The notes under the pieces: model-generated
The model's input: the letters and a program-made list of their open reading frames with translations, nothing else
The model's database searches: none
What the model was told of the DNA's origin: nothing
Part shown: positions 22,392 through 63,566 of the stretch, piece after piece
How positions within the stretch are numbered: position 1 is the first letter of the stretch
Layout of the letters: every line of letters starts with the position of its first letter
Assembly (NCBI GenBank): GCA_018389105.1
Contig: JACATO010002209.1
Coordinates: 1-64,000, forward strand
Direction of reading: 5' to 3'
DNA from: Nautilus pompilius
Lineage: Eukaryota > Mollusca > Cephalopoda > Nautilida > Nautilidae
Length of the DNA stretch: 64,000 nt
Program-made: the position numbers and the translations under genes

Positions 22392-22425
<34 letters not shown>

Positions 22426-27643: not shown

Positions 27644-27651
27644 GGTAGAAT

Positions 27652-36950: not shown

Positions 36951-36978
36951 GATGTTATCAATTACCAGTGTCCATCAG
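36951..36978 (+). CDS. Exon 1 (visible): start of C-type lectin domain
   Basis: A 28-bp micro-exon after TTTTTTTTTTCCAG encodes DVINYQCPS plus one base and is followed by GTAAGT. The cysteine begins the extra N-terminal disulfide of long-form lectin domains. Reading in phase 0 at its 5' border implies a further upstream exon carrying the start and signal peptide. The exon would be unconvincing alone, but its phase and residues fit exon 2 exactly. Confidence 0.8.
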
Positions 36979-38165
36979 GTAAGTTATTTTCTTTGCGTGG
37001 CTATTGTTGGCAACCACAGTTTGGTTCCTGGTTGGTATTATCCATTTGTGGTTTCCCTTCCTCTTTGTACCAGCCATTTTTGCATGAATTCTCTCTAACT
37101 CACTAGAATATTAGAGAAGTTCTGGTAGTTTTGTTAGGATGGCAAAAGTCAGTATGCATCACACATTTTATGTGGTCTTTAGTGCATTCTTTCTCCACTC
37201 GTATGTACTGTGGACCGTCTTTATCAAACCCTAACCAATTTTTGCTTGGAAGCATCTCTGGGCACACTTCACTGAGCCCACTTGCACTCAAGATCTTTAA
37301 GAACTATTATTTTATGCCTAACACCTTTGGTTATCTCATCAGTTACATTTCATCACCAACAACACAGCAGCACAACAGCGAATGTGGCCTTTAGAATTTT
37401 TCAAGAAAAAGGACCAATAAGGATCAGCATTGACTTAATTTGAATAAATGAATTAAGATTAGGATGGCTTAAAACTATTTTCCGAGCAGACCAAATAAAG
37501 GGGTGTGTGTGTGTGTGTGTGTTGTAATAGTGCACAATGATGTATGTGACGGTACTGGTTTGTTCTGAGAAAATAGTCTTTTAACAGCAATTTCACCCCA
37601 CTTTCTGTTTGTTCAGGTTGGGATAATATTGGATTCTCCTGTTATAAAGTTTCTACCAAATCTCAGCCATGGGACTCTGCCTTGGATATTTGTAAAAGGT
37701 ACTGTCAGGTTGCCCCTTTTTTTTCATGTTTTAATAGCAATTATTTCTTCTTAATCTATTTAGCATTTTGTGATCGAACTAGACAGAGCTGCATAGTCCT
37801 ATTTATGGACTCTTTGTATGGAACTAGAAGTTCATTGATGTCAAATATCTCAGCAGTTCTATTATATGGACAAAGTATTCAACAAACTTACTTTTTATTT
37901 TCAAAGCTCACCCATTAGTGAGTCAGAAAAATGCTTTTTTTCATTGGAAACTATTTTGTGTTGTTCCAGAACCAAGCAAGTTGATCCGTCGTATTATATT
38001 CTTGGAGGCTTTATTGGCTAGTAGGCACGAGAATATTGATTCACTTTACGTGAGTCTAGCTGCTATTTTATATCTTTTTAAATTATTAATCACTTTTTCC
38101 AAAAATAATGAATTATAGAAAATTTAGCATTTAAGAGTTTCAGATAGTGTTTAGAAAATTAATTA

Positions 38166-38200
<35 letters not shown>

Positions 38201-41200
38201 ATTTAAGTAAAACTTGAGAAAATAATCATTACTGACTTTTTAGCATTAATACTGTTGTCAAGTAGAGTAAATGAAACTATATTTAGAAACAGTTTAAAGC
38301 TGGTTGCTCAACCCTGATTAATATTTTTTTTTTCTTTTCTCTGAAATTGTATTGTTCTGGAGTATTTATAATTTAGAGAGAAATTTTAGTGTAATGTCAT
38401 AAGCCTATGTAGATCAGGAAAACGTCCTTCATTGAAGAAAAAGCTAAAAATGAAAGTGTATTAAGTAATTTGTGTGTTACAAAATACTGGAATAACACAA
38501 GTTTGGTTTCAGTTATCACTTCATTCATCAATACTGTATATTCAAATTTAATAAATCCTTGCGTTAAATAGTTGCACAAAGCAGAAAAATTGCTAAATTT
38601 TTAGGTGTCACATTTTCAGGTTTTAAAGTGGCAGTTTGTACTGCACTTAAATATGCTAAATTACAAAAAAAATGAAAAACGTTGGCTATGAGCGGTGAGA
38701 CTAACAAGTGCACAAATTAAATTGGAACATTCATACTTAAGTTTGAAGGGGTTTGGGCATATAAATGGAGTAGGGAACTTGTTACCTAAAGCTTGGGCAT
38801 CTTAAGTTTGAATAATATTGAAGAAGATTGATTAGGATTTGTGACTTAAATGAAACTAAGCAGTGATGTGATAATGTTTATTCAAATTATTTTTACAGGT
38901 AAAGAAAAAAACAAATTTTTTTCTATAGTTGTTTGTTTGAATTGGGGGGAAATAAATCTTTGAGACATTTGTTGCAGATAACTGTCCAATTATTCTAATT
39001 TAGAAATCTACTTTGCTAACAATAAAGCTTTACAATAACACTGCCCCTGTTTGAATTTATCAGATGAATCTCCACTGGCTGGCTATTTTAATAGTGCATA
39101 TTACCCTTTTAGACTTGAGTCTCACTGAGCTGCAGATGCAAATAAGATTGACCACATAATATGATAGATGATCCCTGCAGCATCCTGTATGACTTGGACA
39201 AACACATTTTCTGTCAGTCTCATAGATGAGGGGGAAAACAAATACATCACAGTGTTAAAAAGAGCCATGATAGTAGGTGCACATCTAGCTGGTTCCACAG
39301 TGGCCAAGACAGTTTTGTTGGTAGGCTGCTCCAAAACATTGATCATTTAAGTTCATCAGTAGTGGCAAAAACTGAAGAAAATGTCTACTGCTAGGGAAGA
39401 AAGTAATCAGGCAGGATAGCAATGCCCCAACTGTTGTCATACAATAGACCAACTTACATACTTGTTCATTGCAAGGAAATATCTGCACCCATGTCCAGCC
39501 ATGCCATGTGAAGAATGTTGCAAAGAATAGTCTATGATAGTAGGATATCATTACATAAACCACTGACCACAGTTATCAACACGAAAAGATATCTCATTCA
39601 GCAAAATTGGGGGGAAAGTGATGTAGCTTGATGAATCTCTCTTCACCCATTTTTGCACAGATCTGGAAAAGGCCCTGTGCTTCCATCTGTCCAGACCTTT
39701 GGTGGTGGAGTCCTTGTTAGGAGCATATTTTGCTGGCATGCCCTAGCCACTTGGCTTTTTTAGAAGTCACAAGGAATGCTAAAACTTATATCAACATCAT
39801 TTTTGTTCAAGTGCATCTAGTGATATTCCATGTGTACCCTGATGGAGATGGATACTTCCAAGTCCACAGTACTCCCATCTACTGTGCCCACATTATGCGC
39901 TCTCAAGGTTTGAGAAACATGACAAAAATTTCAAGCATCTGTCATGCCCAGCAGAATCCCTGGATATCAGTCTAATCGAGCCTATGTGGTATGAACTTGA
40001 AAGACAGGTTAACCATTATGATTCTTTTTCTACTTTACTCCATACATTACAAATAATATTAATGACTGAATATGGAAATATCTCTCAGGAAACCTTCCAG
40101 CATCTGGTGGATTCTATTCCAAGTTGTGCCACAGCTATTATTTTGGCAAAAGGTGGACAGCCAGTGTATGGGGAAAAGAATGAAACTCTATCTTTATTTA
40201 TGAACTCAGAAAAATGTAATTATGTCCATGTTTTGCCTCAGGTTTCTGTGTAGAATACGTAACTAACAAATCATTTTCTTATATTGTATATATGTCATTT
40301 TTATAAGGAAACTTCTTATATTTTTTTACTTAATTTGTTTTTGAAGAAATTTGAAAATACAAGGAAGAATGATTAACTGAGTATGTAATAATCTCATGAC
40401 ATCATCTCTTATTTTCTGAAAGAAATGAAACATCATTTTGTGTTTATTTTGAAGATATTTAAAATGTTATTAATTTTTTTTCAGTATGAGTTCATACCTG
40501 GTGAAGCTTGATGACTATTATGTAAATAAAGATGTGGGAAAATTTTCTGCTTCAAAAAGTGTTGAACAGTTTTGGATAGGTAAGTCAAATCATTAGCAGA
40601 ACAGATGTAGTACAGTGGAGCAGTCCACTGTTTGTCTGTCTTTGAGTCGATTTTTATATAATGGATAAAACAATATACAGGTTACTTTGGTCATTTGTAT
40701 GAGAAAAGGAAATTATAAACCACATGCACTAAGTTACACAAGAAATTAATTTTCATTTTGTTGGTCTTTTAAGATTAGATTTTAAATTAATTTTTATCAA
40801 AATAAATATTCCCATGTCACTTTATATTTTATGTGATCTATTTGTGATGATAATGTTTTATGCATTCTTTAAATGTCACCTTTTAATTTTCAGATAAGTA
40901 TTCATCTTTATAATGTAGATTTATGTGCATTTATTCTATGTGATCTAAAATGATCCAGTGTTTCAGAAAAGAGTAGCAGTATGTCCTGAATTAGCTTTGG
41001 CATATGATTTTTGTACATTAAAAATGCATTCTTTCCAGGTACATAACTGTATCTAAGTTTGTAAGGAATGTTCAATTGATAAAAATGAAGGGAATGATAT
41101 TTTAAATGATTGGATGTATGTGTAGGAGCTGGTATGCATGGAAATAAATGCTGAGAAGAATTAAATTTATGAAAAAACAACATGTTATTTTAAAATTTGT

Positions 41201-44200
41201 TCTTTCACAGGTTTTAACCGGCTGCATGTAAACAAAACAGACAAAAGCATTGCACAGTGGAGTGATGGGTCACTAACCAGCATCAGTAAGGGATTCTGGA
41301 GCAATTATAATCCAAAAGTCAATGATGGTGATTGCGTGTTCATGTCAGATACCAAAATTGGATATAGGTGGTCATTTGCAGATTGTAATGACAAAAAGCA
41401 CTTTGTTTGTGAGTTGACTGCATGCCCAGTAGGTAAGTGTTTATTACAAAATGTTTTTGTTTTGGAGATTTGTTCTTATTATTCATCATAGCATCTAGAA
41501 AACAGGACTGCTAGTTTGTTATGTGGGGCCCAGGAAATTCCAGAAAAGTAAGCTGTTTTTCTGGTCAGATATTTTTGTAAAATAATACAGCAGTAAGTTT
41601 TTCTCAAAAATGTAATGTGATCTATTTTGGATGTTCCAAAAATGAAACAATACTAAACATTATCTGTTGCTTGCACGCATGTTTCAGGTACGTTTCGCTG
41701 TTATAATGGACAGTGCATTGTCAGTAAATGGCTCTGTGATGGTGAAAACGACTGTGGCGACTTTTCCGATGAGAACAATTGCAGTAAGTATGCGCACTTT
41801 TGTTAAGGAGAAGTTTGAGAGTTTCATGGCTTTGAAAAAATAAATGTGCACAGCTAGAAATATTTAATCTCAAGTTATAATTTAATAGAACAGAAAGGAG
41901 TTGCAATCATGGACTAATAAACCTGGGATTTAGCACAATAGAAAATTAGAACTATTATTAATGTCCTCGTTCATCTACAAACATTTAAAGGTGAAACTGG
42001 GAGACATTTTCAGCAATTATTCTAGAACACCAACCTCCTAGCAGCAAAGTATTAATAGGTTTCAATCTTTTTATTGTCCCTCACTTTTAGCAAATCTGAC
42101 CGCAAGTAGTGAAATCGTTTGTAAATAAAGCTGGAAATTTTCTTTTGTGAATTTTCCATGAATGTTCCCTGGAAACAGAATTTATACAGAATTTCCTTAA
42201 TGTTTTCATTAATATTGTACTGGTGGCATATTTCTCATTGAGTTTCAGAAGATACAACAAAGTTGATAAGTCTGAATGTTTTATAACCAGCTTAGTGGTA
42301 AATGTTTCAGTAATAAGTAAACAAATCTGCTGTTGAAGAAAAGTTGAAAAAGGAAATATTTCTAGCTTTTAAAAGTGTTCAGGTTATTTATGCATGTAGC
42401 GTTTTAAATGTTTGAATCAAACTGGTGCTTGATTCTCACAAAAGAATGATAAATTGTTTGGTAACGTTTGATTTATTACTTTTTTTTTCTGTTTTCAGCT
42501 TCCAACTGCACACATTATGTGACAGGTTCATCTGGTGTCATCGAGTCACCGGCCTTTCCCAATAACTACTATGCGATGGCTTATTGTATTTGGACAATAG
42601 AAACTCCTGTTGGTACTAATGTGGAACTTGGCGTAAGCATATTAGAGAGAGTTTTCTTCAGAATAAATGATTGGTTATTGATTTGTTTTGATTCTGTAAA
42701 CATCTAATTTGATTTCACATTTTTAGTATAAGCAAATTATGTAACCTCAATCCTTTTTATTGGATTGGATAAAATTTAGTTTTAATCTCAGATTATTGTT
42801 TACAAAAAGAAGAAAAAACAACATTTATCCATGATTTTCTTTCTTTAATCTTAATGTTTACTGTCAAAAATGTTTTAAATAGTCTAAAGAAACAACAAAG
42901 ACATTCCCAGCATGTCCTTAAGCCATTTTTGTTGCAATGTCCTGGTGGCTATCTGTTGGTAAACAGCCAAGCAAGATTACTGATTGCATTAACTATAGAA
43001 GGAGTTGCTTTTATTTTTACCCACTTGAGAGATTCGAGAGCTGATAATGGCAGAAGCCTGAGAATAATTAGACTTTCAAATAATGTTTCCACAGTCAACT
43101 GAAATAGTTCATATCGATTGTTGACAGTTTCTGTGTTTACTGTGGTTAATAACACATTTTGTTTTCATTTTACCTAGATTACTAAATTGGTAACAGAAAG
43201 AAATCTTGATGAGATGCAGATTTTTGTGGGTGGTAAAACAGAATCTACCTCCATTCTTTTGGAACATTTGTCGGGGAATTTGTCCACCTTACCTACCCCG
43301 TATACCAGCAGCAACAATTTCATGATCGTAAAATTCTTTGGAGACTCATCAAAACAATTTAGTGGTTTTTCAGCCGAATGGAAGATTGGTAAGTTAACAT
43401 TTTGTCAGTGAACAGACATTAGAAATCTGAGAAATTTATATCTGACACAGGTCAGTTATCCTTTTTCAACAATTTGATTTACTGAGTTCTGAGAAGACAA
43501 CTCATATATGGTTTCCAAAATGAATGAATGGTCTTCTTAACATTAAAAGAATAAATAAAATAATGTTTGCAACATTTTCAAACACAATTGTTGCATTTTG
43601 TTTTGGGTTATTTTATGTGAAAATTCTGTTTGCCAATCAAACTACCAACCAGTTTACAACTCTTAAGGAAGCATATGCCTAGTATGCAATTCATATATCT
43701 TAAACAGACACAGATGATCAAAACACATGAAACAGAATTCTAGACAAACCACCTAATTTGGAGGCCATCTTTGTGAGGGGCTAGTCACAATATAGGCTGC
43801 AACTATATACAGCTCTCCATTCTTTTTAGCAAAATTCAAAAGTGTGAAGTAGATGGAAATAATCTTTACTATGATGATGTATATTTAAAGGCACAAGACA
43901 TGCATGTCGTGTTTTAATAAATTTTTCATTTTCTTCTGATCAGACTTTGTTATTATTTCAGCAACTTTTTGGAAAATAATATTGCATGTAGCTTTGGGGC
44001 ATTATAAACTTGCAACCAGTCATAAGAAATTAAATGTACTTCAACTGTAAAACAGATTTGTTCCAGCTCAGAGATCTATACTTTAAAATTTAATGTACAA
44101 ATCAAAATTTAAATGGTATGTAGCACCATAGATATTTGTTCCAACATTTCAATCTTGTTTTAACAGGTTTTTGAAGCTTTCTCAAACTATGCTTTCAAAC

Positions 44201-47200
44201 ATTTTATACATAATAGAAAAATGGTATTATTACCATGTAGTTTGAGTAATGTTTTACAAAAAACTTTCAAATGTCTAATAATATTTCATATGCCTACATA
44301 TGCATTTAAAAATTTTTTTATAGCTTCTGCTAACCAGAGTTCAGATCAGCTGACAGCTACAATTACCCCAAAATCTTTGAACTCTCCACTGTATCCAAAA
44401 AAGTACCTTCTTAACCAGAACTATTGGTGGACAATCACAGCTACAAGGAAGACAGCAATAATCACAATTCAGGTAAAACCCCTAGATGAAAAAAATTTTA
44501 AAAGGGCATATTTTGTACTTGCAGTGTTAACATTTTCAGACTTCATTATCAAAGATTCCTTTTTCAATTAAATGCAGTTAATAGATATTGTGTCAACTAA
44601 AAATTATTTTTCAAAAAAAGTGTTACATTCTTAGGCTTGAATGATAACCAAAACCAGATAAATTTTATTTAGACATATACAGTATTTAGTTTTACTTGTG
44701 GAAAAACACAAAGCAATTAGAAGTTATAGGAAATAATTTATTCCTTAGGGCATGGATTTTATTACAATATGTTAATGAAGAAATAGCATTAATGTTGGTG
44801 CTGGTACTCTCTGTTAAGTTAAAAATGACACGATTGTGACTTAACATTCGTTGCTATTGCTAATTCAGAACTGTACACAGTTGACACGTCTGCAAGTCTA
44901 ATCACCCGATCTGGTGTCCCTTGCCATTCCTGAGTTAAGGCCAATTCTAGATTATGTGGGTTCTTTGGAAGGTGAAGCAACTATTGTTAGATCTGTGGAG
45001 AGGTGACTGCTCTGTTCTAAAGGACCATTCCTCTTCATCTGCTTGTCATGAGTATTTGTGCAGTGGATACAAACTCTGCATAACTGATGTTAGCTACTTT
45101 GTACCTCCAGTTATTTTGTTTACTTGCTATATTTTCCATAAAATGCTCCTTAATCTGATATTTTTATATATTTATGTTCAGTAGATATATATATATATAT
45201 AAGGGTTTGTTTTTTTTAGTCTTATTGCATAATTTATATTTGCAAAGTCATGGCTGCTAATATTTACATGTATTACTCCTGTTTACATGTTTTAAAACTT
45301 GGAGATTAGTTATTACAGCAGCTAATAACTACAGCAAACTAATGGTCTTATTGAGTCAGCTTTCTTTAAATGTGTAACTGTGATTGTAAGAAGTCAATGC
45401 GTGTATTTCTAAAATGTTCCTTTGTCAAAGATACAGATCATCTTAAAGGTATACTTAATAGTAGTGGTAACATGTCTTTCTTCTCATTGGTCCAGCTATT
45501 GATGAATACATCTAACAGTTTACATTGTTTTATAGATGTCAAACATTTAAAAGATCTTAAGCCATATAAGTAAACTTTTTTCCATGACTCATCAGAGTTA
45601 TTTATTATGCCCAGTGATTTTGTATAATAAATCTCAAGCCTTTCTTTATCAAGGCATGATATTCAGTCTTTTCACTTTAATGTAGTACAGTACTAAGAAC
45701 ACCCAAGTTTCTTACTATACATATATATAGAATTTTTTAAGGGGTGGTCAGATCTAAGTGTCAATACCTTGCACAACCTTTCAACATCAGTAACTTATTT
45801 GAAAGGTGTAAGCTGGTGGTATTACTTTATGAATAAAATACATATAGTATGAGTAACATTGAATGTGGAAACATAAATCATGTGTTCAGTTTTTTTGTTT
45901 TTTGCTAAAAATCAACTTGTTTATCATTTCAAACTTTGCTATAAATATTGGTGAGGTAGAGTTGACATGAATGTGTTACTTGAAATATTGTCAGATTTAA
46001 ATTATGTCCAATGTGATCAACAAAAACATGGATTTCCCTTGGTGGGAATGATTTTAAAATACTTTTTTTTAGTTGTCTCTCTCGCTCTGATGGGCACTAG
46101 TTAGCGTAGGTGTCTTGTCACATTTTCTGTGGAAATTATAGGTAGGTTCAGTAATAGTGTCAATTTAAAGCAGGTCAGGTTGTTACTGTACATCAGAGCA
46201 AGTGTTAGTTTTGAAAAAGATACCTTTGTTAGCACTAATAAATTAGTCTTAAATCTTAATTTAAACTCAATACAATTTTAAAATTTTAGTTCAAATATAA
46301 AAATTTTTTTCTTTTGATTTTTGAAGTTATAAATAAGAAAACCTGCTATGGAGACACCTGCGCAAGCTGAACTCATCGAAACATTGAATATAAATTGTTG
46401 AACGATTGAACAATAGCTTCCATACTTTTACATTAAAATTTTTAAAAATACTAAAATTCTTTAAATTCAAATAAATCTCAAATATTTGCTAAGTTTCAAA
46501 TCTGAGAATATTTTTGATTGAGAAATGTTTGTTGGTTGTCTGAATTAATGATTTTAGTCTTCACAACTAATTTCTCATTCATGGAAATCATGGGAAATCA
46601 CATTTAGATTTTAAGTAAATTAAAGTTCAAACCTTCATTATACATTGATTTTCTACATTTGATTTTAAGATGACTACTTACTAGTTAATAGTTCAGTCTC
46701 TAGGATGAAAGAAATTATTAGACAATTTCTATGATTACCAATGAATTTTCTTTTTTAGTTTTCTTTAAAATCTTGCATTGCACCATTGCCTGTTGATAGA
46801 CAGAACCTTGAGAATTACTATATAATATAGAAATGAATTGTATTAAACCTCAGCTGAGATTATCTGGCAGATTTTAGTAAAAATCATTTCTCATACTTTT
46901 CCAAACTAACTATTTTTTCTCTCCACCTAGAGGTCTTTATGAAAACTACTATTGGTTTCCCTAAAAAAAAAAATAAAAAATCAGCATTTGGGTGTGGCTT
47001 GCATGAGACCACTCCTAGACTAAGGTCATCACCTATTGGTCATCACCTATTCATCATCACCTATTCTTAACATGGCCACACCTCAGAAATGTTTTTAAGC
47101 TTTCTCATAGCAAATACCCAGTCACCTGAAATGTGTCTAATTATTTCATAAGGTAAAAATGTAAAATATAAATGGCAAAGTTGAATAAAATGAAACTAAA

Positions 47201-51560: not shown

Positions 51561-51603
<43 letters not shown>

Positions 51604-53076
51604 TGTAGCATTTGGTGAATCTCATTAACCCTTGCAACAATACATTTTTTCTTATCAACATTTTGAAAAAAATAAATACCAGATAACATAAATGATGGAA
51701 ATATGAGCACAGCTTCATTGTTACAAAACAAAATCTCTAGTCATACATTTGACATTGACTGGAACAATTACAGGCAGCAGTTGTAAATAATAAATGAAGG
51801 TGAAAAAAACAGCAAATAAACAGGCATTAGTTTTTCCTGTAGCAGCAATTTATGTATACAATGATATGGCACACCAAAAGAAAAATAATATGGAAGCCTT
51901 CTTTCTTGATTTTGATGCTTGCAACAAAAATTTACATAAAGGTTGCACTGAACTTTGCTAAAGTATAATAAACTGGCTTTTCTTTGAGCAGGAAGTTATG
52001 TTCCTGCAGTAGAAGTTTGGTGGTCTCTTTATGACTAATAATCTGAAGTCTTTAATTCCCATTAAATGCTAATTTGTTATTGGAAGATACATTTTCCATC
52101 CATGTCTCCAGTGAAGTAGCAAAGTAATGTGATAATTTAATTCATTTAACAAAAATTGAATGAAAATATTAGTTTGCAAATAAAATTTCTCATTGGTTTC
52201 TAAAAGAGAAAAAAAAAGGCATTTAGATGTCCTTCGTGAATGAATCATCAGGTTTGAAATCATTTGGATGTGTTTTGGTCATAGTACATGTAGACTTCTT
52301 GATGAGCTCTCCTTTTTTCATACTTGATGACTTCAGTCTATAACATTATTCATTCTCTGGAAATCAGTCTTTACAAAAGACCACATAGCAGAACGTTTCA
52401 GGTATTTTACATGATGCAAAGAGTTCATCATTTTAGAATTATTGGCATTTTAAAATGGATACATATTCATGGAAAATCCTTGACTGAATACAAAAGAAGT
52501 TTTATCAGTTGAGAATATTCTAATCTTTGTACTACTGTTTTGAAAAAATATATAATACAAAGCTGGCCATCCATTATTTACTTATAGTTATATGATGGAG
52601 ACACAAAAACAGGAACAGTCATTGGGAATTTCACAGGAAACAAGTCTCCTGCACCTCTGACATCAACAAAAGGTCTGCTGACTATTAGGTTTACAACAGA
52701 TTCTGCTGTCAACAAGCGAGGATTTGAAGCAATTTATTCCATAGGTATGAGAAGAAAAACTACAGTATATTACAAACCTTGTATTCTATTGTTTAAAAGA
52801 AATCCTATTATTTTGAATCATTTATGTTGTTTTACTGGTACAGGTGTTTATTATTGTTGTTTTTTACTGTATTGGTTTGTCTTCCTGGATCTTTCTTGGT
52901 TTTGTGTAATTCATACTAAATCTAAATGGCATTTTGTATATATATTTATTTATTTTGATTGAAGTATATTTTGGGAAAATAAATTGGAATTATTACAATT
53001 CAAACAATACAGAAATGATTTTACTTCCACTATTTTATTTTTTCATGAAATTACACAAAATAAAGTGAAAACTCGT

Positions 53077-53112
<36 letters not shown>

Positions 53113-56100
53113 AATTTCCAGGTTGTGAAAATCCTAATTTTAATGAGAAAACCCACAGCGACTCTAACTCAACACAATGGAATTATGGGTCATCATTCAA
53201 CGTGACCTGTGCGGCGGGCCATTACTTCAGCTTCCAAGAATTTTCCTCAAACTACTCTAACCTTACTACGTTTGACAGCATGATGTCCGTACATATGGAG
53301 TGCTTGTCTGGTGGCATGTGGAACACTCAGAATATCCCACAGTGCTCGCGTATGTATCATATTAATTTCACTGCGGACTGATTCGCAACCAGAAGCGCAG
53401 TCTATGTACAAACACTAATAAACTATAAAAGACGAGTCTAGAAATTATATTCTGCAGATAAGGGACAATAACTATGATTTCTCTAGATTAAAAATGCATA
53501 GAAAATATGATTTTGAGATATGAAAGAAATAAGTGTAAACACTATTTAAACAGGTGACATTAAGGCAACAGTTTATGCTCATAAGAACTGTTTCTTCTTC
53601 AGGATAAGACATAGATTAACTTCGTAACATCCCCGTTGATCTTTACGCCAGTGGTGGGAATGCATTATCAGGAATCAGTTAAAACTATCTTTCACAGATT
53701 TTATAAGATGGAAAACTATTTTCAGGAATTGTTCCTTTATACTGGGGCTGTGATATTACCAGTATTTTTGGAGTTTTTTACTGCCAGTGTGTGTGTGTGT
53801 GTGTGTGTGTACACTCTGATACTCCTGTTAAAATAGTTTTTTGTAATAAATATTCTTTTAAGATTTCATCCATTTTCATAAAAGTGTTAACTTATAAAAT
53901 ATTTTTAAAAAGTTGTGGTTCATGTCTTAGAATAATAAAAATAAAGGAACTGAAAAATTAAACTTGAATTTTCCATTTATTTTCTCTTTAATAAATTGGT
54001 TAGACATTTCTGTAAGTTCTGTGGTTCTGTAAGTTAAAACGTTGGAATTTTTTAGAGATATTAAACTACAATGATCCTTATGTAATTATTTGATAGTATG
54101 AAGAGCGATGACAATCTTTTTCACCAGCCAGCCACGTTGATTTTTTCCTGCATCTAAAAAATGAAGAATTCTGTTAGGGACTTTCTGTGGGTGGCATGTG
54201 ACTAACCTTTGCACTCTGTTCTCTTGCACTTAGTTTAGGAACTTGATGCCAGGGGTTTTTTCTGGTAGTGTTCAGTAAAGTTGAGTAATGAATATATGGG
54301 AATCAATTTATTTTTTTATTTTAATTAATCTGGAGGTAGTGTAGCATTATAGACAGTGAGTTTTTAAAAAGTCATGATAAGTTTGGCTGCATTCTTATTC
54401 TACAAGATCCTGTTTCTTATCTCATTATGCTCCTGTAAAACAGTGACATAAAATATTTCATTGCAATAAAATTTATTAATTATATTAATAAACTTAATAA
54501 AACTAAAAATGTTTTTTTCCACAAAAAAGTAGCAGCTTTGTAGGGTTTTAACACAAATAATATCATATCAAACTCAAATCAAAGGGTAGATGGACAGCTG
54601 GTCTTTTTACTAAATATGGATAAAAGTAGTGAAGTTGAGTATTAATAAGGTAGATAATCACTAAATGAAGTCAAGGTTTCCAACTGAGTTACAGATCTTT
54701 CAGTCATCTTTACTAGCTAATCTTTTATTTTTGTGAATATATTGTTTGTGTGATAAAATTAGTATGTTCACTTTAATATTTCATTTGATTGCAGAAAATA
54801 CCCTAGAAACACATTTGAATTGTTTGTGTTTTTTTAATATATTTTGAAACATTTGCAACTTCTGGTGTAAGTAAAAGTATAGAAATTATGATCCACACAA
54901 GAACAAACCTCTAAGCTAAATATATTCGAGAGATTCTGCACTTAAAAGATATTTTTTTCTTCTGATTGAAGTGTTTTGCAAAATAATGGTATTTATTGTG
55001 TCTTTCACTTAATTATTTGTTTACGTATTTTAAAAATTGATGCAGATGTCATCTTGAGTCATTTTGTGCAGCTTGTTCACTTTAATGATATTGTGGACCT
55101 CAAAATAAACAAAATAAATTGTGTCAAGCAAAAGTATTTCTGGCTCTGGTCTTAAAATCAGCAAAAAGCTTAGCTTATTCTGTCTGTATTGTCAACCCAG
55201 CATGGAGGTCCAAATAACTAATTATGTTTTTTGCTGAAGCATATCTTTATGGATGATTGTTTTCTGTGGTGAGAGAGAAAGTGCTACAGCCTCATGTACT
55301 ATAGAAGAAATCAGAGTCATGGCAAAACTAATGGAATTTTGTGTCGAGCTCAAGTACAACTCTGGATAGTTTTATGAAAAAAATGACAAACAACTTGAAG
55401 CCAGCTTGGTGTGGCTTCCAACTTCTTTTTTTTTAAGGTCTGATGTTTGTTGTAGCTTCTCATCCCTGCCGTATGGAATAGCGTGTATTGCTATATGAAT
55501 GGTTCCACTCTACACAACTCGAGTCATTAATGTTTGGATGACATGGTCATTGTATCGCTGTCATTGCACAGCAGCCTAAACATCGCCAACTTATGTTTGT
55601 GGTGCCTTGCAGAAAGCAACCAGTGCAAGATTGTTTTTTTGTGATTTTTGACTCCAACTCAGCAGCCCGTTCTTATTAAATGTATGAACCCAATTTCAGA
55701 ACGTTTTAATTGCTCAAGTTTGGTGCAGTCTGGTATTTTTGTGAAAATTATATTTTCTGCATTAGAGCAGTATTTTTAATTAAAGTTTGGTCAGGAGGAG
55801 GATAATGATGATATAATAAAAATAACAACAACAGTGTTTTTTTTTTAATATGTTTACATCAGCATCTTAACCCTCTGTATACCACCTACTGTTCTCCAAA
55901 TCTCTCAGTATAGATTAAACCATAGGAGGTGTGACACAGCGCCCTTCTCGTTGATATACTAACTCTTTGTAATGATAAATCTGTGTGTCTCTCAAACTGA
56001 CAGCTGTATTGGACTAAACATACAGTCAATTTAACACAAATAGTAACGTAAGTTGGGGTGGTATAAGTCGGGTAAAAACTGACATGGTACACAGGAGGTT

Positions 56101-59100
56101 AAGCAAATATTTTATTTGAACGTTTCATTAAAAAATTAAGTTAATATCGAAATGAGAAAAAAAGATGTTCTTTTTGCTTAATTGTTTTTTTTTTCTTTCA
56201 TTTTAGCCAAGTATTGTGGAGCAGTTCCTTTGTTGGAAAATGGTTTTGTTGCAAATTCTACAGGGGTGGTGTATGGCAAGCATGCAAGTTACTCTTGTTT
56301 TGATGGCTATGTTCTGAACGGTCCATCTTCTATAACCTGTCAATCTAGTGGCGCGTGGAGTGGTGGGCCAACATGTGCTGGTGAGTTAGTTGGTCGCTGA
56401 CACTGAAGAACTTAAATACTCTCTTAGTAAGCCGGTGTATGATGTTTTTGTTTTTGTTTTTTATCAAACTACTAAAATAGTATAAAGTGACATTTGTCTG
56501 TCATGTTCACTTCACTTTCATCAAGAATAGTGAGTTAGATATGCATAAATGTTTATTTACAGCGGGTTTTTGCCCCCAATTTGGTTGGATGGGCTGGGGA
56601 GGGAAACAGAATAGTTCTTAATTGCTGAAGACTTGTTTCGGTGGGTTGTTATGATGTCAGAGGCTTTGCTTAGACCTTAGTAGCTCTGCTTCTGAACTTT
56701 AGATACTTAACTATTCTTGGACTTTATTAGATCAACAGAAAATTTATGATTTAACCTACTTTCTCTCAATTTTTATAACCTTTGATAATAGTGGGGAATG
56801 TAAGTCTAAAATTAGTTCATTTTACAGTGTTTGCAGTTTATATTTTAATAAATCTTTTTATTTAAATGTGTTTATTAGATCAACAGAAAATAAATTATGC
56901 AAATTAGATCGTTTCTTTTCAGCAGCAGCACGATCCTTCTGAGGTGACTGTAGTGAACTATTTTGGTTGTCAATTTTACCCTGTAAATTTTTTATTGTCA
57001 GTTAGGTGTGATTACTATAATGCAACTTTTAAATATACATGGGTTATAATTGAAGATTAAAAAATAAATCTATCATACATAAAAAATAACATGAAATTAA
57101 TAAACACTCTTCAGTTTCCTATAAAGTTTCAAACAAACACTATTAAACTAAAATTGTAACTAAATATAGGGGGGAAAACTAAGTTTTACATTGATTTTAT
57201 GTTTGGGCTTTAAAATGTAAACATATAGTGGATGATGCTGATATTTGTTTATATAATCTGTTCATGTAGGCACAGCCAGTTAGTAACCTTGTAAAATAAG
57301 CTTTTAAAGCCATAGTATGAAATAAAGGATGAATTTGTATGGCAAAATATGTCATCAGCTTATAATCTTGGGCTACAGAAGATGTTTCTGCATTACATTT
57401 TTTATCTTGGCTCTGAAAAAGCAAAGCTTTGAGAGAATCGTGTTGGTATATTAAATATTAAAGGATAAGTACAAGGTTAGTAAAAACACAAGGGTATGCA
57501 AACATATATGAAATATAATTTCTAAACAACAAAGTAACTAGCTAAAACAGATAGCTAAACTAGTTTTAATGAGGCTTTTATTGTGGGCAGGAAAGTGATT
57601 AATCATTTCAAAATCAGGAACCTTGCTTGAAACTAGGTTAATAATGATGAGTTGGTAAGGCAACATTTTATATTCTGTAGTTATGAGAAATTTGCTTAAG
57701 TAAGTTTCAAGAGTTTCTGTTTCCTTCCTGCTACAAGGACCAAAATCTGATTTTCAAAATTTGTTCAATTATTTGAAAAGAAAATTTATAACTTTTTAAT
57801 TAAAATTTTACTTGACATACAACCATTAATAAAAATATTATTTCTTAGCTGCATCATGCAATATCTCATCAGATATTGAACATGGAGAAAAGATTCTGAA
57901 GGAGGGCAACGGAACTTATGTTGGTACATTAATTCACTACACATGTAACCCTGGCTACCAGCTGTTTGGAGATGCAATTCGTTTCTGTGAAACAAATGGA
58001 AATTGGAATGGCAGTATTCCTGAATGTAAAAGTGAGTTTTTCATGTTTCACACAATGTTCATTTACTTAGCATTCTTGGATACTATACATAATGTAATGG
58101 ATTAATATACTGAATATTTTAAGGAAAGCACAAATTGCATAATGAGGACTCAAAATATTTTACACATTAAAATACTTGTATCTCAAATGTTTACAAAATC
58201 ACAGATGTTTGGGGTTTATTGACACACAATTAAGCACTAGGATACCATTTAAAGGTGGATTATACTTAGCTAACAAAATGTTATTAACTAAATTATATTG
58301 TGGGCTTACTGTTTTCATTCTTTTATTTTTAGTTAGCTACCTATAAAATAGTCATTTAATTTCAAAAATAATTTTTCAATTCTTGAGATTCGTGTAATAC
58401 AGAAATTTAAAACTGTTGTTAAGTTACTTACCATATTTTGTAAAGTAATTAAAATTATCTGTGATTCATATTAAAGTGCCTTTTTAAACTTTATTTATTT
58501 ATTTACTTATTCAATTTTATTCTAGAACTTCACTGCCCAGGCTTTCTTTTGGACAAAATATCACATTCACAAATATCACCAAGTGGGGATGTATTATTTG
58601 AAGAAAACAAGACAGTTACATGTGACAAAGGTTTTGATTTGATTGGTTCTTCAGTTGTCACTTGCATGGAAAACGGAACTTTTGATAATTTACCCAAATG
58701 TCAAGGTAAATCACCAATTTCTGTACATGAATCACATCTGGCTTTAGGATGTATTTTGTTTTATATATAAGCTTGAAGGCCAGCATCTTCTGTAAAACAA
58801 AATATTTTTATATGCGCCATTTCATCCAGCATCTTCTGTAAAACAAAATATTTTTATATGCGCCATTTCATCCAGCATCTTCTGTAAAACAAAATATTTT
58901 TATATTCACCATTTCATTAATATTTCTATCTATACTCCAAACAATTATTGGTATTATCCCATTTTTAATGTCTCTCAGTGTATTAATGTATGCATTCATC
59001 TTACATGCTGTAGATCTACTACATATATTCAGTGAATTTATGGAAAGCAACTTTTAAAATTTTATAAATTAGAAATTTATTTTTGGTTTTTGTTCTGATA

Positions 59101-62100
59101 AATTTTTTTTTGCAGTGTTTCATCCTCTATGCAAAACCTTCAAATAGGGTCCATTTACTTTCTAAACATTTTTGATTTTCTGAACTGTCATTGGATAGTC
59201 AAAATAACATACATATATATATATATATATATAATTTACAAATGTTATATATATTTTACGCTTTTTATTAAACTGCTGAGGAAACATCAACACCAAATTA
59301 ATTTTTTTCCTTTTTTTAGATATTGATGAATGTATCACAAAGCCATGTTCTCAGATATGTGTGACCACTGAAGGATCTTACTACTGCAACTGTCACCAAG
59401 GATTCACTCTGGATGCTGATAATTCTACCTGTAATGGTAAATACTGTGGATTTAATGATACTGGGTAGAATTCATTACTTAATGCCTTTATTTACTCAAA
59501 GCAGCTTTAAGCATTGTCTAGAATGTTTGATCACATGGTGTAAATTATTGTCAACAGTTATTTTTCTCCAAGTAAATGTTCAGCCTGCTGTGCTGATTTG
59601 CAGTTTGGCCTTTGTTTTGAGATGTGTAATTTGAAGAACAATCTCCGTTGTCTTGCCATCATTTTTGCCCTAAATATATTTAATTACGTATCTCTAACCT
59701 AGCATAGTTTACAAAATGAGTGAGTTAAATTTTTCTTCAATATTATGGCTAGACATTCCTACATTTTATAAATCATTCTGGTAGCACATTTTCTAAACTG
59801 AATGTTTTATAGCAAAATGTATTTTGAAAAAAGAAAATTTGTACATAATCAATTTAATGATTTTTCATAATTTAATAAAAATTTTATATAGCAAATAGTC
59901 ACTGCTGAAATATGTATGTGATGTTTTCTTATTTTCCCTATCCATTAAATAAAGATTTTCTGCGTGATGTTAGTCTGTTGTGGAAATTGAACCGACAAAT
60001 CAACTGAGGCAATGCAGCTATACATGACAAATTTCAAACAAAGTGCGCAGATGTGTGATTGGGTGCCTGGGATTATCTTGGTAGTATTGTTGCCCTTGGT
60101 GGCTTCTATTAAAATTTGTAGAACAATGCAGCACCATCAGCAGTGATTTTTTTTTCCTCCCAGTGAATCATCCAAGATTGCTGGAAAGCACAATATAGTT
60201 GACATCTCATCCCAACCGCACATATGCACATGAAACTACACACTAGAAAAACTTGCAGCAGGTTTATTTTTATTTAAGAGAATTGAGGGTCATTCAGCCA
60301 TTAGGTTTGAAAATATTACTACAGTTTAAAGTAAACTTTACATCTTTCGCAAACACTTATAAATATAGAAACAGAAAAAGTAAATGGAAGTGGTGATTGA
60401 TTGTCTCTTCAGATGTCAACGAGTGCTTGACGAACAATGGTGGCTGTGCACATAGGTGTTTGAACACAAATGGTAGCTATGTATGCAGCTGTAATGAGAG
60501 TTATGTATTATTCACCAGCAACAACACCATGGGCTTTACGATTCCACCTTCTGAGACTGGCACCAAATTTGGGGATATTTACTACTTGAACCATTCCTGT
60601 GTTGGTGAGTAACTCCTGTTTTGTTCAGATTGTAAAGGTGATGTATGTTCAATAACCCGAGTATTGTTTCATTATTAAAAAAACTCAGGATAGGATCTAT
60701 AATAAAGATGGTAAAATGTCAGCATTTTATGCTGATGACTCATGTAGTCTCTATAAAGTAAATGGTGTCTCTTCTGATCTCATTCCTACACAATGAAATT
60801 ACTACAGAAAAATGGTAACCTTCCACATGTGTCTTCTACAATTGGCTTTTAATAAAACAAAGGTATTTTCACTTCTTTATCACTGACTGGTAATGCATAC
60901 CGTTTGAAATTAGACAAAAATGATAATATGTTTGTAAATGCTTCCTTCTCTAACAAGTTTGTGTGAAACACATTTGTTATGGTTGATTGACAAGATTTAT
61001 ACCTATTTAAATGCGTTTCTTAGTAATTTTAGCAGTATCCAAACTTCTATTCCATTCATCTGGAGGAAAAACACCTTTGAATCCTCTAAATAAATTATTT
61101 TTCTTCTGAGTATTATAGCCAACAACTCAGAATGTGGCTTTGTGTGGATTTCTGTTACTTTATCTGTACTTAACATGAATTAATTTTGTATTAAAAACAA
61201 ATGAAATTTAATGAGTTTCTTCCTTTTAAACTTGTATGAAAAATTGAAATTTCACATAATCTAAAAAAAAGTCTGCATTAAATATGCTAGTGTATGTATT
61301 TTGAGTAAATAGTCAATGCAAATACTTAATCTTACTCTAAGGTTAATTATATATATATATGTATATGCATATGTATACAAGCAGTAAAATACTCTCATGA
61401 AATAATGAATTGATATGGGTTGTATTTTATCAACAATCATGAATTTGTTTTATAGTGTCTCTTTTGCTCTATTTCTAGGAAAATTGTTTTTGTAAAAGGA
61501 TTGTGATGTTAGAAGAATCATCTCTTGTGAATTTTTTCAGAACAACAGTGTCCTAACCCTAAACAGATACCTAATGGTGATCTATTGGTTCATCAGCAGT
61601 ACTACCATGTGGATGACAGTATCACGTATTCCTGCCAAATCGGTTTCAGGTTGAATGGTTCCGACATGTTGACTTGTCTGTCTAATGGCAGCTGGTCCTC
61701 TGAGACTCCCACCTGCCAAGGTAAGCTATCTGCTTAGTTCAAGAAAATTAATATTGTACAACAGTAGGCTACAGTGGATTATGCTAATACACTTATGGTT
61801 GATCCTTATTTTTTAACAATGGAGACAACTCTGGCTATCCTCAGAAAAAAAAACATTTTAAAGACTCCAGTGGTTACTCCAATTCCCCACCATAGTCACC
61901 TGTGATGGAAGCATATCATTAGTCTATTGAATAGTACAAAATATACTACATTGGTGCAAAAGTTTAATAGTTACTATTTTGCTCAACACTTACGATATAC
62001 ACAGCATAAGCTCTCAGAATATTGTTACATGGCTCTGTGGTTTTCTGCAGTGCAGGAAGAACTTCAGCCATTGTACTTTTGTTTATTTTGTTTTAATTAT

Positions 62101-63566
62101 ACACATGTATTATTATTATTGATTAAACGATGTGAAGACAATATAGATTTTATTAATTTGACATTTGAGTGGACTGATAAAGAATGCTGCAGGTAGCAGC
62201 TGGTAGTTTAATTGATGGCACACAAAATATTTTTGTCATATGATCAGATTGTCTCTTCCAACAACACAGTAAGCTGAGTGAAACATTTACGACAAATCTG
62301 TACAGATGATTCATTTTCTGAAGAAGTCTTATGGATGCCAGTTTGGAACAAGTAAATTTAATGAGTAAGATAGTAACTGTGAAAGTTGAATATGTCTAAA
62401 AAATGCAAGTTAATGACCAACTTTGTTTAAAAAAAAAATATTTTAATTTGTTTTTTATATTAAATATTTTCTTTTCTTTCAACTTCACTTTTAAAATTTT
62501 ACTTTTAACTAATAAAGTTGGAAAACAACAGATCATTACTCACCTCTTAAATAGCAATGTTTGTGCTACAACCGTGGATTTCACCTAACAAGCTGTCACC
62601 ACTCATTTTTACCATCGATTTTATTTCAGAACTTTCTTTTTTTTTCTTCTGTAACATTGCAATGTATTTATTTTATTTTTATTTTATTTTTAACAAGCTG
62701 TCACATGTGCTCCAGCCAGTATTTCACCATCAGTGGTGACAAAGCCAATTGTATCACCCACTACATGGGTTTCTTACCTTTCTTATGTCAATCTAACGTG
62801 CAATGTACCTGGAAAAGCCATCTTCACAAGGATGAGGCAGTGCTTATACAACCAGAGTGCAGATGATTATGTTCTGCTGGGAGATGATTATGAGTGTGGA
62901 GGTAAGAAGAAAGAAATTTTATAACAGTTATTCACACTGACTAGCCTAGTGTCTTCCTCTGATTCTGCTGTAACTACAGTTCTCTTTAGAATGTCAGGGT
63001 TAGCTTTTAGAAAGAATTACAGTATTTCTCACTAAATTAGTCAGTTTTTACTCAAACAGAAAATTAACATACACTTACTTTCACATAACACAAAATATTT
63101 TAGTGGTGTTTAAGGTATTGATTTTTTAAAATTGAAAATATTTAATTTTTCTCAAAAGAAAGTAAGCGCATATATATTTCTGTACTTAAGGTCTGGAAAT
63201 GATGTAGACTGTTTTGTTGTGTGTGGGTTTTTAAAAGTAGCTTCTGAAAATGTTCTAATATTTTTAAGTGCACACTGACAGTTAAAAAATAACCGAATAC
63301 CATGGAGTAGTTTACTCAGCTAATACTGTTAAACAGAAGACATTAAAATTCCTACATTTGTTGTTGTTTTGCAGTAATTGACTGTGGGCCTCCACCAGTT
63401 ATCCAAGGGTGTGAGAACGATAATACCAGCAGTACTACATTTGGCAGTTCCTACAACGTAAGTGCTGATGACCTGATCAAGATAAAAGGCAGCAGCAGCA
63501 GCAATAACACTATAGTAACATGTGGTGCTGATGGTTATTGGGACTTAGGAGATATTGTTTGTGTTG
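36951..63566 (+). CDS. Mosaic extracellular protein gene: CTLD-LDLa-CUB3-CCP4-EGF2-CCP-like3 (partial at both ends)
   Basis: Twenty exons join in continuous phase into about 1,068 codons without a stop. Approximate residue positions: C-type lectin domain 1-142; LDLa 140-174; CUB 175-289, 290-406 and 407-518; sushi/CCP 519-594, 595-652, 653-713 and 714-773; calcium-binding-type EGF 774-812 and 813-876; sushi 877-936; two divergent four-cysteine sushi-like modules 937-1004 and 1005-1068. These modules occur outside cells, so the product is secreted or is an ectodomain, consistent with about 30 N-glycosylation sequons. Neither the signal peptide nor the C-terminus (protease, transmembrane segment or other) lies in the window. 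The modules are those of complement-type proteases, adhesion proteins and pattern-recognition receptors, but the order matches no named family I know. Function is inferred only as ligand or cell-surface binding. All introns are GT-AG; the donor of exon 10 (GTGATT) is weak. Confidence 0.9.
37503..37522. repeat. (GT)n microsatellite
   Basis: Ten GT dinucleotides, about 95 bp upstream of exon 2. Confidence 0.95.
37617..37698 (+). CDS. Exon 2: lectin domain, N-terminal part
   Basis: After GTTCAG the exon reads [20 protein letters not shown], then SALDICK, the canonical opening of a long-form C-type lectin fold with its first helix and first core cysteine. It ends with a split codon (phase 2) at a GTACTG donor. 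Confidence 0.92.
38161..38199. repeat. (TAA)n microsatellite
   Basis: About eleven TAA trinucleotides after an AATTAATTAA start, inside the lectin-domain intron. Confidence 0.95.
39205..40180 (+). pseudogene. Tc1/mariner-type transposase relic inside an intron
   Basis: Fragments of one transposase follow in the right order on the plus strand across several frames. A helix-turn-helix piece, [20 protein letters not shown], lies near 39271-39345. [13 protein letters not shown] piece, equivalent to the conserved VK-GGGSVMVW, lies near 39690-39725. A WYELERQV piece lies near 39986, and a C-terminal [20 protein letters not shown] piece ends near 40180. Stops and frameshifts separate them, so it is dead. 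It has the same orientation as the host gene and lies wholly within its lectin-domain intron. Terminal repeats were not located with certainty. Confidence 0.85.
40485..40579 (+). CDS. Exon 3: lectin domain, middle part
   Basis: After TTTTTTTTCAG the exon completes the split serine codon and encodes [20 protein letters not shown] through to VEQFWIG. The FWIG strand is the hallmark WIGL-type motif of C-type lectin folds. The donor is GTAAGT, phase 1. Confidence 0.93.
41211..41432 (+). CDS. Exon 4: lectin domain, C-terminal part
   Basis: Encodes the long-loop region and the last strands: [20 protein letters not shown], then [38 protein letters not shown]. All core cysteines are present. Where sugar-binding members have EPN or QPD the protein reads NPK, and the usual WND is replaced by RWSFADC, so the classic calcium/carbohydrate site appears absent. 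The final ACPV cysteine belongs to the following LDLa module. Confidence 0.93.
41688..41783 (+). CDS. Exon 5: LDL-receptor class A module
   Basis: A symmetrical phase 1-1 exon encodes [20 protein letters not shown], then [12 protein letters not shown]. With the cysteine from exon 4 the six cysteines are complete, and the calcium-binding acidic cluster ([13 protein letters not shown]) is intact. The module is therefore expected to fold and bind calcium, and such modules commonly bind lipoproteins or other ligands. Confidence 0.95.
41784..42498. other. Intron, nothing recognised
   Basis: AT-rich intron of 715 bp between the LDLa and CUB exons, ending in a T-rich tract and TTTTCAG. Confidence 0.8.
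42499..42632 (+). CDS. Exon 6: first CUB domain, N-terminal half
   Basis: Encodes [20 protein letters not shown], then [20 protein letters not shown] and VELG. The SP-x-FP-x-NY pattern and C-x-W are diagnostic of CUB. The first disulfide pair is present. The exon ends in phase 0. Confidence 0.93.
43178..43388 (+). CDS. Exon 7: first CUB domain, C-terminal half
   Basis: Encodes [20 protein letters not shown] through [20 protein letters not shown] and WKIG, matching the second CUB half (strand with GG, then FxSDxSxxxxGFxAxW). The second conserved cysteine pair is absent and the usual YDG is FVGG. The donor is GTAAGT, phase 1. Confidence 0.92.
43389..44323. other. Intron, nothing recognised
   Basis: 935-bp AT-rich intron between the first and second CUB domains. 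Confidence 0.8.
44324..44472 (+). CDS. Exon 8: second CUB domain, N-terminal half (no cysteines)
   Basis: Encodes [20 protein letters not shown], then [20 protein letters not shown] and [10 protein letters not shown]. The SPLYPKKY turn and the WTI strand identify a CUB half-domain, but both cysteines of the first pair are missing (the second is replaced by tyrosine or tryptophan in NYWWTI). It ends in phase 0 at GTAAAA. Confidence 0.88.
45185..45201. repeat. (AT)n microsatellite
   Basis: Short uninterrupted AT tract in the CUB2 intron. Confidence 0.9.
47238..47262. repeat. (CAA)n microsatellite
   Basis: Eight CAA trinucleotides in the CUB2 intron. Confidence 0.95.
48370..49370 (+). pseudogene. 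pogo/Tigger-type transposase relic (POGK-like) inside the CUB2 intron
   Basis: Plus-strand fragments in several frames follow the order of a pogo-family DDE transposase. [11 protein letters not shown] (near 48668-48705) matches the NMDETP block that carries the first catalytic aspartate. Then come [33 protein letters not shown] (near 48800-48860), a VHVHSKD piece, a WIECEI piece and a C-terminal [14 protein letters not shown] (49301 on) that matches the end of POGK-like proteins. Many stops and frame changes show it is long inactive. It shares the orientation of the host gene and lies wholly within an intron. Confidence 0.85.
49979..50180 (+). CDS. Exon 9: second CUB domain, C-terminal half
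   Basis: Encodes [20 protein letters not shown] through [20 protein letters not shown] and [11 protein letters not shown]. The FDEVIIYDG strand and the closing GFHFTY strand are typical CUB features. The domain retains the acidic and YDG positions but has no cysteine at all. Acceptor TTATACAG, donor GTAAAC. Confidence 0.92.
50181..50874. other. Intron, nothing recognised
   Basis: 694-bp AT-rich intron between the second and third CUB domains. Confidence 0.8.
50875..51053 (+). CDS. Exon 10: third CUB domain, N-terminal half
   Basis: Encodes [20 protein letters not shown], then [20 protein letters not shown] and [20 protein letters not shown]. The first cysteine pair and the ISSPGY and CTWII motifs are present. 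The donor is GTGATT, a weak site chosen because only it keeps phase 0 and joins DFLL to LYDGD of the next exon, restoring the CUB strand. Confidence 0.9.
51054..52587. other. Intron with (TTA)n tract
   Basis: 1.5-kb intron. An (ATT)n microsatellite with two phase slips occupies 51524-51603. Nothing else recognised. Confidence 0.8.
51524..51603. repeat. (ATT)n microsatellite
   Basis: About 26 ATT trinucleotides with two single-step interruptions. Confidence 0.95.
52588..52744 (+). CDS. Exon 11: third CUB domain, C-terminal half
   Basis: Encodes [20 protein letters not shown], then [20 protein letters not shown] and [13 protein letters not shown]. The YDG, the [11 protein letters not shown] strand and the GFEAIY ending are diagnostic. 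The second cysteine pair is lacking, as in the first CUB. Confidence 0.93.
52745..53121. other. Intron ending in a TA/T microsatellite
   Basis: 377-bp intron. A (TA)n-poly-T tract at 53080-53112 directly forms the pyrimidine tract of the next 3' splice site. Confidence 0.85.
53122..53349 (+). CDS. Exon 12: sushi/CCP domain 1
   Basis: Encodes [20 protein letters not shown], then [20 protein letters not shown] and, after an extended loop, [19 protein letters not shown]. The four cysteines and the C-x-W...C ending of a sushi domain are present. The loop between cysteines 2 and 3 is about 15-20 residues longer than usual and carries two extra N-glycosylation sequons (NYS, NLT). Phase 1-1 exon. 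Confidence 0.9.
53787..53810. repeat. (GT)n microsatellite
   Basis: Twelve GT dinucleotides in the intron after sushi domain 1. Confidence 0.95.
55871..56098. mobile_element. Small piggyBac-like MITE between TTAA sites
   Basis: A 228-bp segment is flanked on both sides by TTAA (55867-55870 and 56099-56102), the target duplicated by piggyBac transposases. Its ends are imperfect inverted repeats, CCCTCTGTATACCA on the left and, reverse-complemented, CCTCCTGTGTACCA on the right (11 of 14 identical). It has no coding capacity. TTAA is common in AT-rich DNA, so assignment rests on the combination of TTAA and CC..GG inverted ends. Confidence 0.65.
56207..56380 (+). CDS. Exon 13: sushi/CCP domain 2
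   Basis: Encodes [20 protein letters not shown], then [20 protein letters not shown] and [18 protein letters not shown]. This is a textbook sushi domain with four cysteines, NG, Y-C-x-x-GY and the W near the last cysteine. Phase 1-1 exon with GTGAGT donor. Confidence 0.97.
56381..57848. other. Intron, nothing recognised
   Basis: 1.5-kb AT-rich intron. Confidence 0.8.
57849..58031 (+). CDS. Exon 14: sushi/CCP domain 3
   Basis: Encodes [20 protein letters not shown], then [20 protein letters not shown] and [20 protein letters not shown]. All sushi hallmarks are intact, with three N-glycosylation sequons. Phase 1-1. Confidence 0.97.
58032..58525. other. Intron, nothing recognised
   Basis: 494-bp AT-rich intron. 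Confidence 0.8.
58526..58705 (+). CDS. Exon 15: sushi/CCP domain 4
   Basis: Encodes [20 protein letters not shown], then [20 protein letters not shown] and [20 protein letters not shown]. The four cysteines are in place. The conserved tryptophan before the last cysteine is replaced by phenylalanine (GTFDNLPKC). Phase 1-1. Confidence 0.95.
58781..58917. repeat. 46-bp tandem repeat, about three copies
   Basis: Copies start with CAGCATCTTCTGTAAAACAA at 58781, 58827 and 58873. The first two are identical and the third has a few changes near its end. Confidence 0.95.
59211..59233. repeat. (TA)n microsatellite
   Basis: About eleven TA dinucleotides upstream of the first EGF exon. Confidence 0.9.
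59320..59436 (+). CDS. Exon 16: calcium-binding-type EGF domain 1
   Basis: Encodes [20 protein letters not shown], then [18 protein letters not shown]. The D-I-D-E-C start and six cysteines mark a cbEGF. The beta-hydroxylation consensus C-x-[DN]-x4-[YF]-x-C is not met because threonine occupies the D/N position. Phase 1-1 exon. Confidence 0.95.
59437..60412. other. Intron, nothing recognised
   Basis: 976-bp AT-rich intron between the two EGF exons. Confidence 0.8.
60413..60604 (+). CDS. Exon 17: EGF domain 2 with expanded last loop
   Basis: Begins [20 protein letters not shown], then [18 protein letters not shown], a cbEGF meeting the beta-hydroxylation consensus ([10 protein letters not shown]). 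The sixth cysteine comes only after an insertion reading [20 protein letters not shown] and LNHSC, so the last loop is over 30 residues instead of about a dozen. No intron interrupts it. Phase 1-1. Confidence 0.93.
60605..61540. other. Intron, nothing recognised
   Basis: 936-bp AT-rich intron. Confidence 0.8.
61541..61720 (+). CDS. Exon 18: sushi/CCP domain 5
   Basis: Encodes [20 protein letters not shown], then [20 protein letters not shown] and [20 protein letters not shown]. Canonical sushi signature including NG, Y-S-C and SW...C. Phase 1-1. Confidence 0.97.
61721..62697. other. Intron with a duplicated splice-acceptor sequence
   Basis: 977-bp intron. TAACAAGCTGTCAC occurs at 62586-62599 and again at 62691-62704, where the second copy spans the real 3' splice site. 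Confidence 0.8.
62698..62901 (+). CDS. Exon 19: divergent sushi-like module 6
   Basis: After TTTTTAACAAG it encodes [20 protein letters not shown], then [20 protein letters not shown] and, further on, [20 protein letters not shown] before CG. There are four cysteines in sushi order, but the usual GY and the tryptophan before the last cysteine are missing. Assignment to the sushi family is inference from cysteine count, exon size, phase and neighbours. Donor GTAAGA, phase 1. Confidence 0.8.
62902..63374. other. Intron, nothing recognised
   Basis: 473-bp AT-rich intron. Confidence 0.8.
63375..63566 (+). CDS. Exon 20: divergent sushi-like module 7 (last visible exon)
   Basis: Encodes [20 protein letters not shown], then [20 protein letters not shown] and [20 protein letters not shown]. 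The DCGPPP opening and the C...W...C ending are sushi-like; the second cysteine lies unusually early (GCEND). A serine run encoded by repeated AGC codons sits in the middle. The donor is GTAAGT in phase 1, so the gene continues beyond the window. Confidence 0.88.

Follow-up and report, generated by a model that had tools for sequence, protein, structure and literature searches.

A nautilus gene that probably encodes a giant membrane receptor of the Uninflatable kind and appears to occur at about seven loci

The first 64,000 nucleotides (the window) of a 228,800-base contig of Nautilus pompilius, JACATO010002209.1 (here C2107), contain 20 exons that, judged from their sequence, probably form the 5' portion of a single gene, whose product would be a giant type I receptor of the Uninflatable (Uif) kind that spans the membrane once and serves in endocytosis or adhesion. 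The Uif-type receptor itself is known from insects. What appears to be new is its reach into molluscs and its copy number, since Uif is called a conserved insect protein in the abstract of PMC13178913, a paper of 2026. A literature search combining Uif with molluscs found no paper among ranked results, which may miss one, and no paper was found that treats both Uif and SVEP1.

The 20 exons (36951-63566, + strand), reconstructed by splice site and reading frame, splice to 3,205 bases encoding 1,068 residues with no stop, and the twenty exons in unbroken phase described by the sequence-only reading are thus all present. Acceptors are AG and donors GT in 20 of 20 cases each, and the borders between modules within the window lie in phase 1. 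On a rough matrix, the acceptors at 44324, 57849 and 62698 scored below 0 and the donor at 51053 scored -0.1. Because the exons were picked for openness, the lack of stops by itself proves little. A free exon-chain search recovered all 20 exons, 18 of them with identical borders and two with another acceptor (57849 and 58526), and gave two short extra exons, probably spurious, within a transposase-like stretch; the search was partly circular, since its codon scores were trained on the window exons and those downstream. Its score over 36900-63999 was 300.8 on the forward strand versus 29.4 on the reverse strand, and the controls gave at most 18.7 (20 Markov-resampled sequences) and 41.3 (the upstream interval 11051-36900). 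The tentative signal-peptide exon is the best of four forward candidates, representing three start codons, in 11000-36945; the reverse strand of that interval yielded none. Elsewhere in the window, the intron between lectin exons 2 and 3 holds, at 39600-40250, degenerate frames that resemble a transposase and read as Tc1/mariner-like, and a satellite array of about 137 copies of an 81-bp unit fills positions 18-11019 at the start of the contig.

The module order within the window is CTLD, LDLa, three CUB, four CCP, two EGF and three CCP or CCP-like modules (Table 1), as the sequence-only reading had proposed. Pfam matched Lectin_C (6.7e-12), Ldl_recept_a (1.6e-11), CUB (3.1e-51, three stretches), Sushi (5.3e-40, four stretches) and EGF_CA (7.3e-10, two stretches) in the window protein. 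Scanned alone, CCP1 fell below the Sushi cut-off of 20.7 bits, and the last two CCP-like exons had no match in the Pfam scan and were modelled poorly by AlphaFold when taken alone (confidence 63.5 and 53.9). Both have counterparts, by eye, at the same place in a paralogous locus on contig C351, which likewise lack a Pfam match. The calcium residues of LDLa look intact by eye.

Table 1. Features of the gene model on contig C2107 (the window is positions 1 to 64,000)
Feature	Position	Strand	Evidence or remark
Candidate first coding exon, signal peptide	21994-22071	+	tentative; phase-0 donor, would join exon 36951
CTLD exon 1	36951-36978	+	Pfam
CTLD exon 2	37617-37698	+	Pfam
CTLD exon 3	40485-40579	+	Pfam; supplies middle of lectin domain
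CTLD exon 4	41211-41432	+	Pfam
LDLa	41688-41783	+	Pfam 1.6e-11
CUB1, first half	42499-42632	+	Pfam, CUB1 5.2e-18
CUB1, second half	43178-43388	+	Pfam
CUB2, first half	44324-44472	+	Pfam, CUB2 1.6e-11; weak acceptor
CUB2, second half	49979-50180	+	Pfam
CUB3, first half	50875-51053	+	Pfam, CUB3 4.6e-22
CUB3, second half	52588-52744	+	Pfam
CCP1, with insertion	53122-53349	+	Sushi sub-threshold, 18.0 bits
CCP2	56207-56380	+	Pfam; matches at 4 paralogue loci
CCP3	57849-58031	+	Pfam; weak acceptor
CCP4	58526-58705	+	Pfam
EGF1	59320-59436	+	Pfam
EGF2, with C-terminal extension common to paralogues	60413-60604	+	Pfam; 5 paralogue loci, 41-55% identity
CCP5	61541-61720	+	Pfam
CCP6, CCP-like	62698-62901	+	weak acceptor; counterpart by eye C351:339733-339899
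CCP7, CCP-like	63375-63566	+	counterpart by eye C351:340633-340827, which has more of the usual cysteines
CCP8	64195		
HYR1	66896		
HYR2	70657		
CCP after HYR2	74418		
Unnamed stretch 1, between CCP and Ephrin_rec_like run	77447-79125		no Pfam match
Ephrin_rec_like x3	82320-85820		Pfam, 3 stretches
EGF x14	87585-97579		hand count; Pfam 12 stretches
Laminin-G/pentraxin domain	98595-102896		Laminin_G_3 3.3e-11, Pentaxin 1.6e-9
HYR3	103590-104240		sub-threshold Pfam
CCP after HYR3	106788		
Unnamed stretch 2, between CCP and Ephrin_rec_like run	107587-112659		no Pfam match
Ephrin_rec_like x12	113101-133088		Pfam, 12 stretches
EGF x2	135396, 137882		Pfam, 2 stretches
Transmembrane exon	141994-142108		in phase with the model
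Tail, two exons	143908-144035, 144212-144237		about 52 residues with NPVY

The gene extends beyond the window: both ends of the 20-exon set are open, and the model, extended with positions 63901-163000 of the contig, continues for about 80 kb. The extended model has 67 exons and encodes 3,581 residues with a single terminal stop, ending at 144237, and the window exons make up the first third of this protein of about 3,600 residues. Past the window come a CCP, two HYR, a CCP, three Ephrin_rec_like and 14 EGF modules and a laminin-G/pentraxin domain, followed by HYR, CCP, 12 Ephrin_rec_like and two EGF modules, one transmembrane helix and the tail. Several of these assignments are weak. HYR1 and HYR3 scored 18.8 and 12.7 bits (E 0.17 for the latter) against a Pfam cut-off of 21.7, HYR2 had no Pfam match and was assigned by reading alone, and one of the three downstream CCP modules reached the cut-off, at 21.0 bits. 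By hand, the EGF modules number 18 (2 + 14 + 2; Pfam found 2, 12 and 2 stretches), and CCP or CCP-like exons number 10, several of them weak. Against NCBIfam, one of the unnamed stretches gave no match and the other gave two, both far below the cut-off; exon 109717-109801 is a weak, tentative guess. A partial copy of the transmembrane exon, probably a fragment, lies at C1009:66523-66621, matching at 82% in the genome search and, with a gap of five residues, at 71% in tblastn.

We compared this gene with Uif, a C-type lectin protein of the CTL-X class, by published domain counts and length. PMC3340373 gives Drosophila Uif one CLECT, three CUB, eight CCP, two FA58C, three HYR and 18 EGF domains, with an intracellular part extending to at least residue 3548, of which the antibody piece spans 109 residues; a single transmembrane helix has also been published. 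The two proteins agree in CTLD (one each), CUB (three each), transmembrane helix (one each) and EGF (18 by our hand count and 18), may also agree in HYR (three in Uif versus three weak candidates here, two of them sub-threshold and one read by eye), compare loosely in CCP (10 CCP or CCP-like exons in the nautilus gene, several weak, versus eight) and are similar in length (3,581 residues in the model versus at least 3,548). LDLa and Ephrin_rec_like modules are likely present in Uif as well; according to a word search, LDLa, CLECT, HYR, FA58C and ephrin occur once each in a 2026 eLife paper on the protein. Unlike Uif, the nautilus gene has a tail of about 52 residues versus 109 or more, belongs to a mollusc with at least seven such loci, and shows no FA58C domain where Uif has two: Pfam found none in the modelled exons, and none of 14 genome-wide matches falls on a contig that carries one of the seven loci, in an exon-by-exon search that could miss a divergent copy. 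Because of the FA58C difference, and because the comparison was one of domain counts and length, we file the gene as Uif-type and not as a proven orthologue. Even so, the sequence-only reading knew no named family with this architecture, and that view falls, since Drosophila Uif matches most of the domain counts (PMC3340373); what had looked like an undescribed system would instead be an Uninflatable-type receptor in a mollusc.

The same modules occur in other proteins. SVEP1 is a sushi, VWA, EGF and pentraxin protein whose middle block consists of CCP, two HYR, CCP, Ephrin_rec_like, an EGF run and a pentraxin-like domain. The nautilus gene shares this block, in the stretch CCP-HYR-HYR-CCP-X-Ephrin_rec_like-EGF-LamG/pentraxin, and might therefore encode a secreted protein like SVEP1 or CSMD, part of the matrix or a regulator of complement, whose modules bind extracellular proteins and whose main form has no membrane anchor. 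Among the PDB entries closest in sequence to the window protein are complement receptors 1 and 2 and factor H, which favour such a secreted protein, and also LRP2, cubilin and neuropilin. We nonetheless consider a secreted protein rather improbable, because the transmembrane exon and tail lie in phase at the 3' end and because SVEP1, to our knowledge, has no CTLD-LDLa-CUB head. Furthermore, none of 133 VWA matches in the genome falls on a contig with one of the seven loci, C2107 included, whereas VWA, Ephrin_rec_like and CCP sets, presumably the make-up expected of SVEP1, sit at C617:1551412-1626677 and C2008:289185-309225. The absence of a VWA match and these separate sets led us to reject SVEP1 identity for the window gene. 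Dense clusters of VWA exons also occur at C904:7137-138588 and C600:717270-756837.

CUB, EGF and CCP modules are likewise common to the nautilus gene, MASP/C1r and factor C, but the latter proteins carry a C-terminal serine protease. The sequence-only reading had held that such a domain would suggest a MASP-like role and a transmembrane helix a receptor. No trypsin domain was found in Pfam scans of the modelled exons, and a six-frame search of the contig's first 163 kb turned up neither GDSGG nor [VIL]TA[AG]HC; a complement protease is therefore unlikely and was rejected. With the serine protease not found and the transmembrane helix present, a receptor is the likelier outcome. Among receptors, megalin and cubilin share LDLa, CUB and EGF modules with the nautilus gene, and an NPxY-type tail motif occurs in LDL-receptor relatives as it does here; in contrast to megalin and cubilin, the nautilus gene gave no beta-propeller match in Pfam scans of its modelled exons and has a different module order. 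A long array of CUB exons at C323:343091-456240 is perhaps a cubilin-like gene.

The Uif-type gene appears to have multiplied in this mollusc to about seven loci, as far as sequence matches can tell. The window protein was matched in block order at six further loci, on contigs C335, C1016 (two sets), C2548, C351 and C1582. For all but C1582, which was left out, comparison of two or three exons with the window gene gave identities of 44-49%, and a small tree of the loci had support values of 0.66 to 0.88. Of the six, five gave a match to CCP8 and three to HYR1. As queries, HYR2, the unnamed stretches, laminin-G and HYR3 matched nothing except C2107 itself, so the C-terminal halves of the other loci are diverged or different; nor was the tail matched at any of the six when used as query. 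Ephrin_rec_like modules (108 genome matches) nevertheless recur at all seven loci in two batches, first two or three and then, after a gap, a larger batch of 10 on C2107, 13 on C335, 13 and 12 on C1016, 21 on C2548, 2 on C351 and 4 on C1582. Sixteen matches lie on other contigs, and one on C1016 (82750, +) fits neither gene set there. The genome also has 14 matches to the molluscan haemocyanin domain, which form two loci of seven units, the number usual in nautilus and octopus; the loci could represent two genes or else two haplotypes. Chitin_bind_4 had no match in the genome, though none in a control genome either, and with the haemocyanin present an arthropod host was rejected.

This recurrence bears on whether two or more adjacent genes were falsely joined in the model. 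The large introns at 22071-36950 and 44472-49979, several weak splice sites and the selection of exons for openness in a model built from genome sequence alone would all allow it. Against this, the order recurs at independent loci, from CUB1 to HYR1 at C351, from LDLa to CUB3 at C1582 and from CTLD to HYR1 at C1016, and the two Ephrin_rec_like batches do so at seven loci. At C351, exon predictions over 20 kb comprised CUB2, CUB3, CCP2, a CCP, an EGF, EGF2, CCP5, two CCP-like exons, CCP8 and HYR1, the last passing the Pfam cut-off (25.3 bits); they were intermixed with unrelated-looking predictions, and CUB1 was added by tblastn. We therefore regard false joining as scarcely credible, and the single gene assumed by the sequence-only reading is upheld. 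Its suggestion of a lineage-specific protein may be right about the copies having multiplied, but not about the architecture.

Seven loci could also point to immune recognition receptors whose family expanded in molluscs. The paralogues would then use their CTLD-LDLa-CUB heads on differing surfaces, microbial or self, and internalise what they bind, as the NPVY motif in the tail would permit. PMC8257504 reports 81 C-type lectin genes in Nautilus versus 12-33 in coleoids and takes them as immune. The identities of 44-49% measured for five of the other loci, however, suggest copies that diverged long ago and not a fast-varying array. Moreover, the EPN/QPD and WND motifs of CTLDs are tied to sugar binding, and since neither was seen by eye in the window CTLD, ordinary sugar binding is doubtful. 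An immune family thus seems unlikely.

Under the preferred reading of a Uif-type receptor, the CTLD-LDLa-CUBx3 head and the laminin-G domain would bind extracellular ligands, and the CCP, EGF and Ephrin_rec_like modules would form a long stalk. NPVY-type motifs recruit PTB-type clathrin adaptors; because the NPVY in the tail would do so too, the receptor may internalise its ligands or partner receptors such as Notch. The closest solved relatives of the CTLD are domains of the IgY receptor, the PLA2 receptor, Ly75 and the macrophage mannose receptor, all endocytic receptors of one family. By analogy with fly Uif, an endocytic or adhesive role at epithelial surfaces is the most likely one, at roughly an even chance; the identity as a receptor is the surer of the two. 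Fly Uif is an apical membrane protein that binds and inhibits Notch, according to PMC12867482; in PMC13178913, Uif-Notch complexes are endocytosed and the Uif knockdown phenotype resembles that of megalin.

More tentatively, and at somewhat less than an even chance, Uif-type receptors may be no insect speciality but an ancient protostome family. This cephalopod lineage would have multiplied it to seven or more giant receptors for endocytosis, their recognition heads diverged, for epithelial or shell-forming surfaces or for self/non-self recognition. At fly epithelia, Uif acts as a modulator of Notch and of endocytosis. If a mollusc has an architecture so close to it, the receptor would go back to the protostome ancestor. 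The comparison would also suggest which parts are core (CTLD, three CUB, 18 EGF, HYR and the transmembrane helix) and which are not (FA58C), and the basic role would become testable outside insects. The seven loci in one genome would form a natural set for asking about the specificity of the heads.
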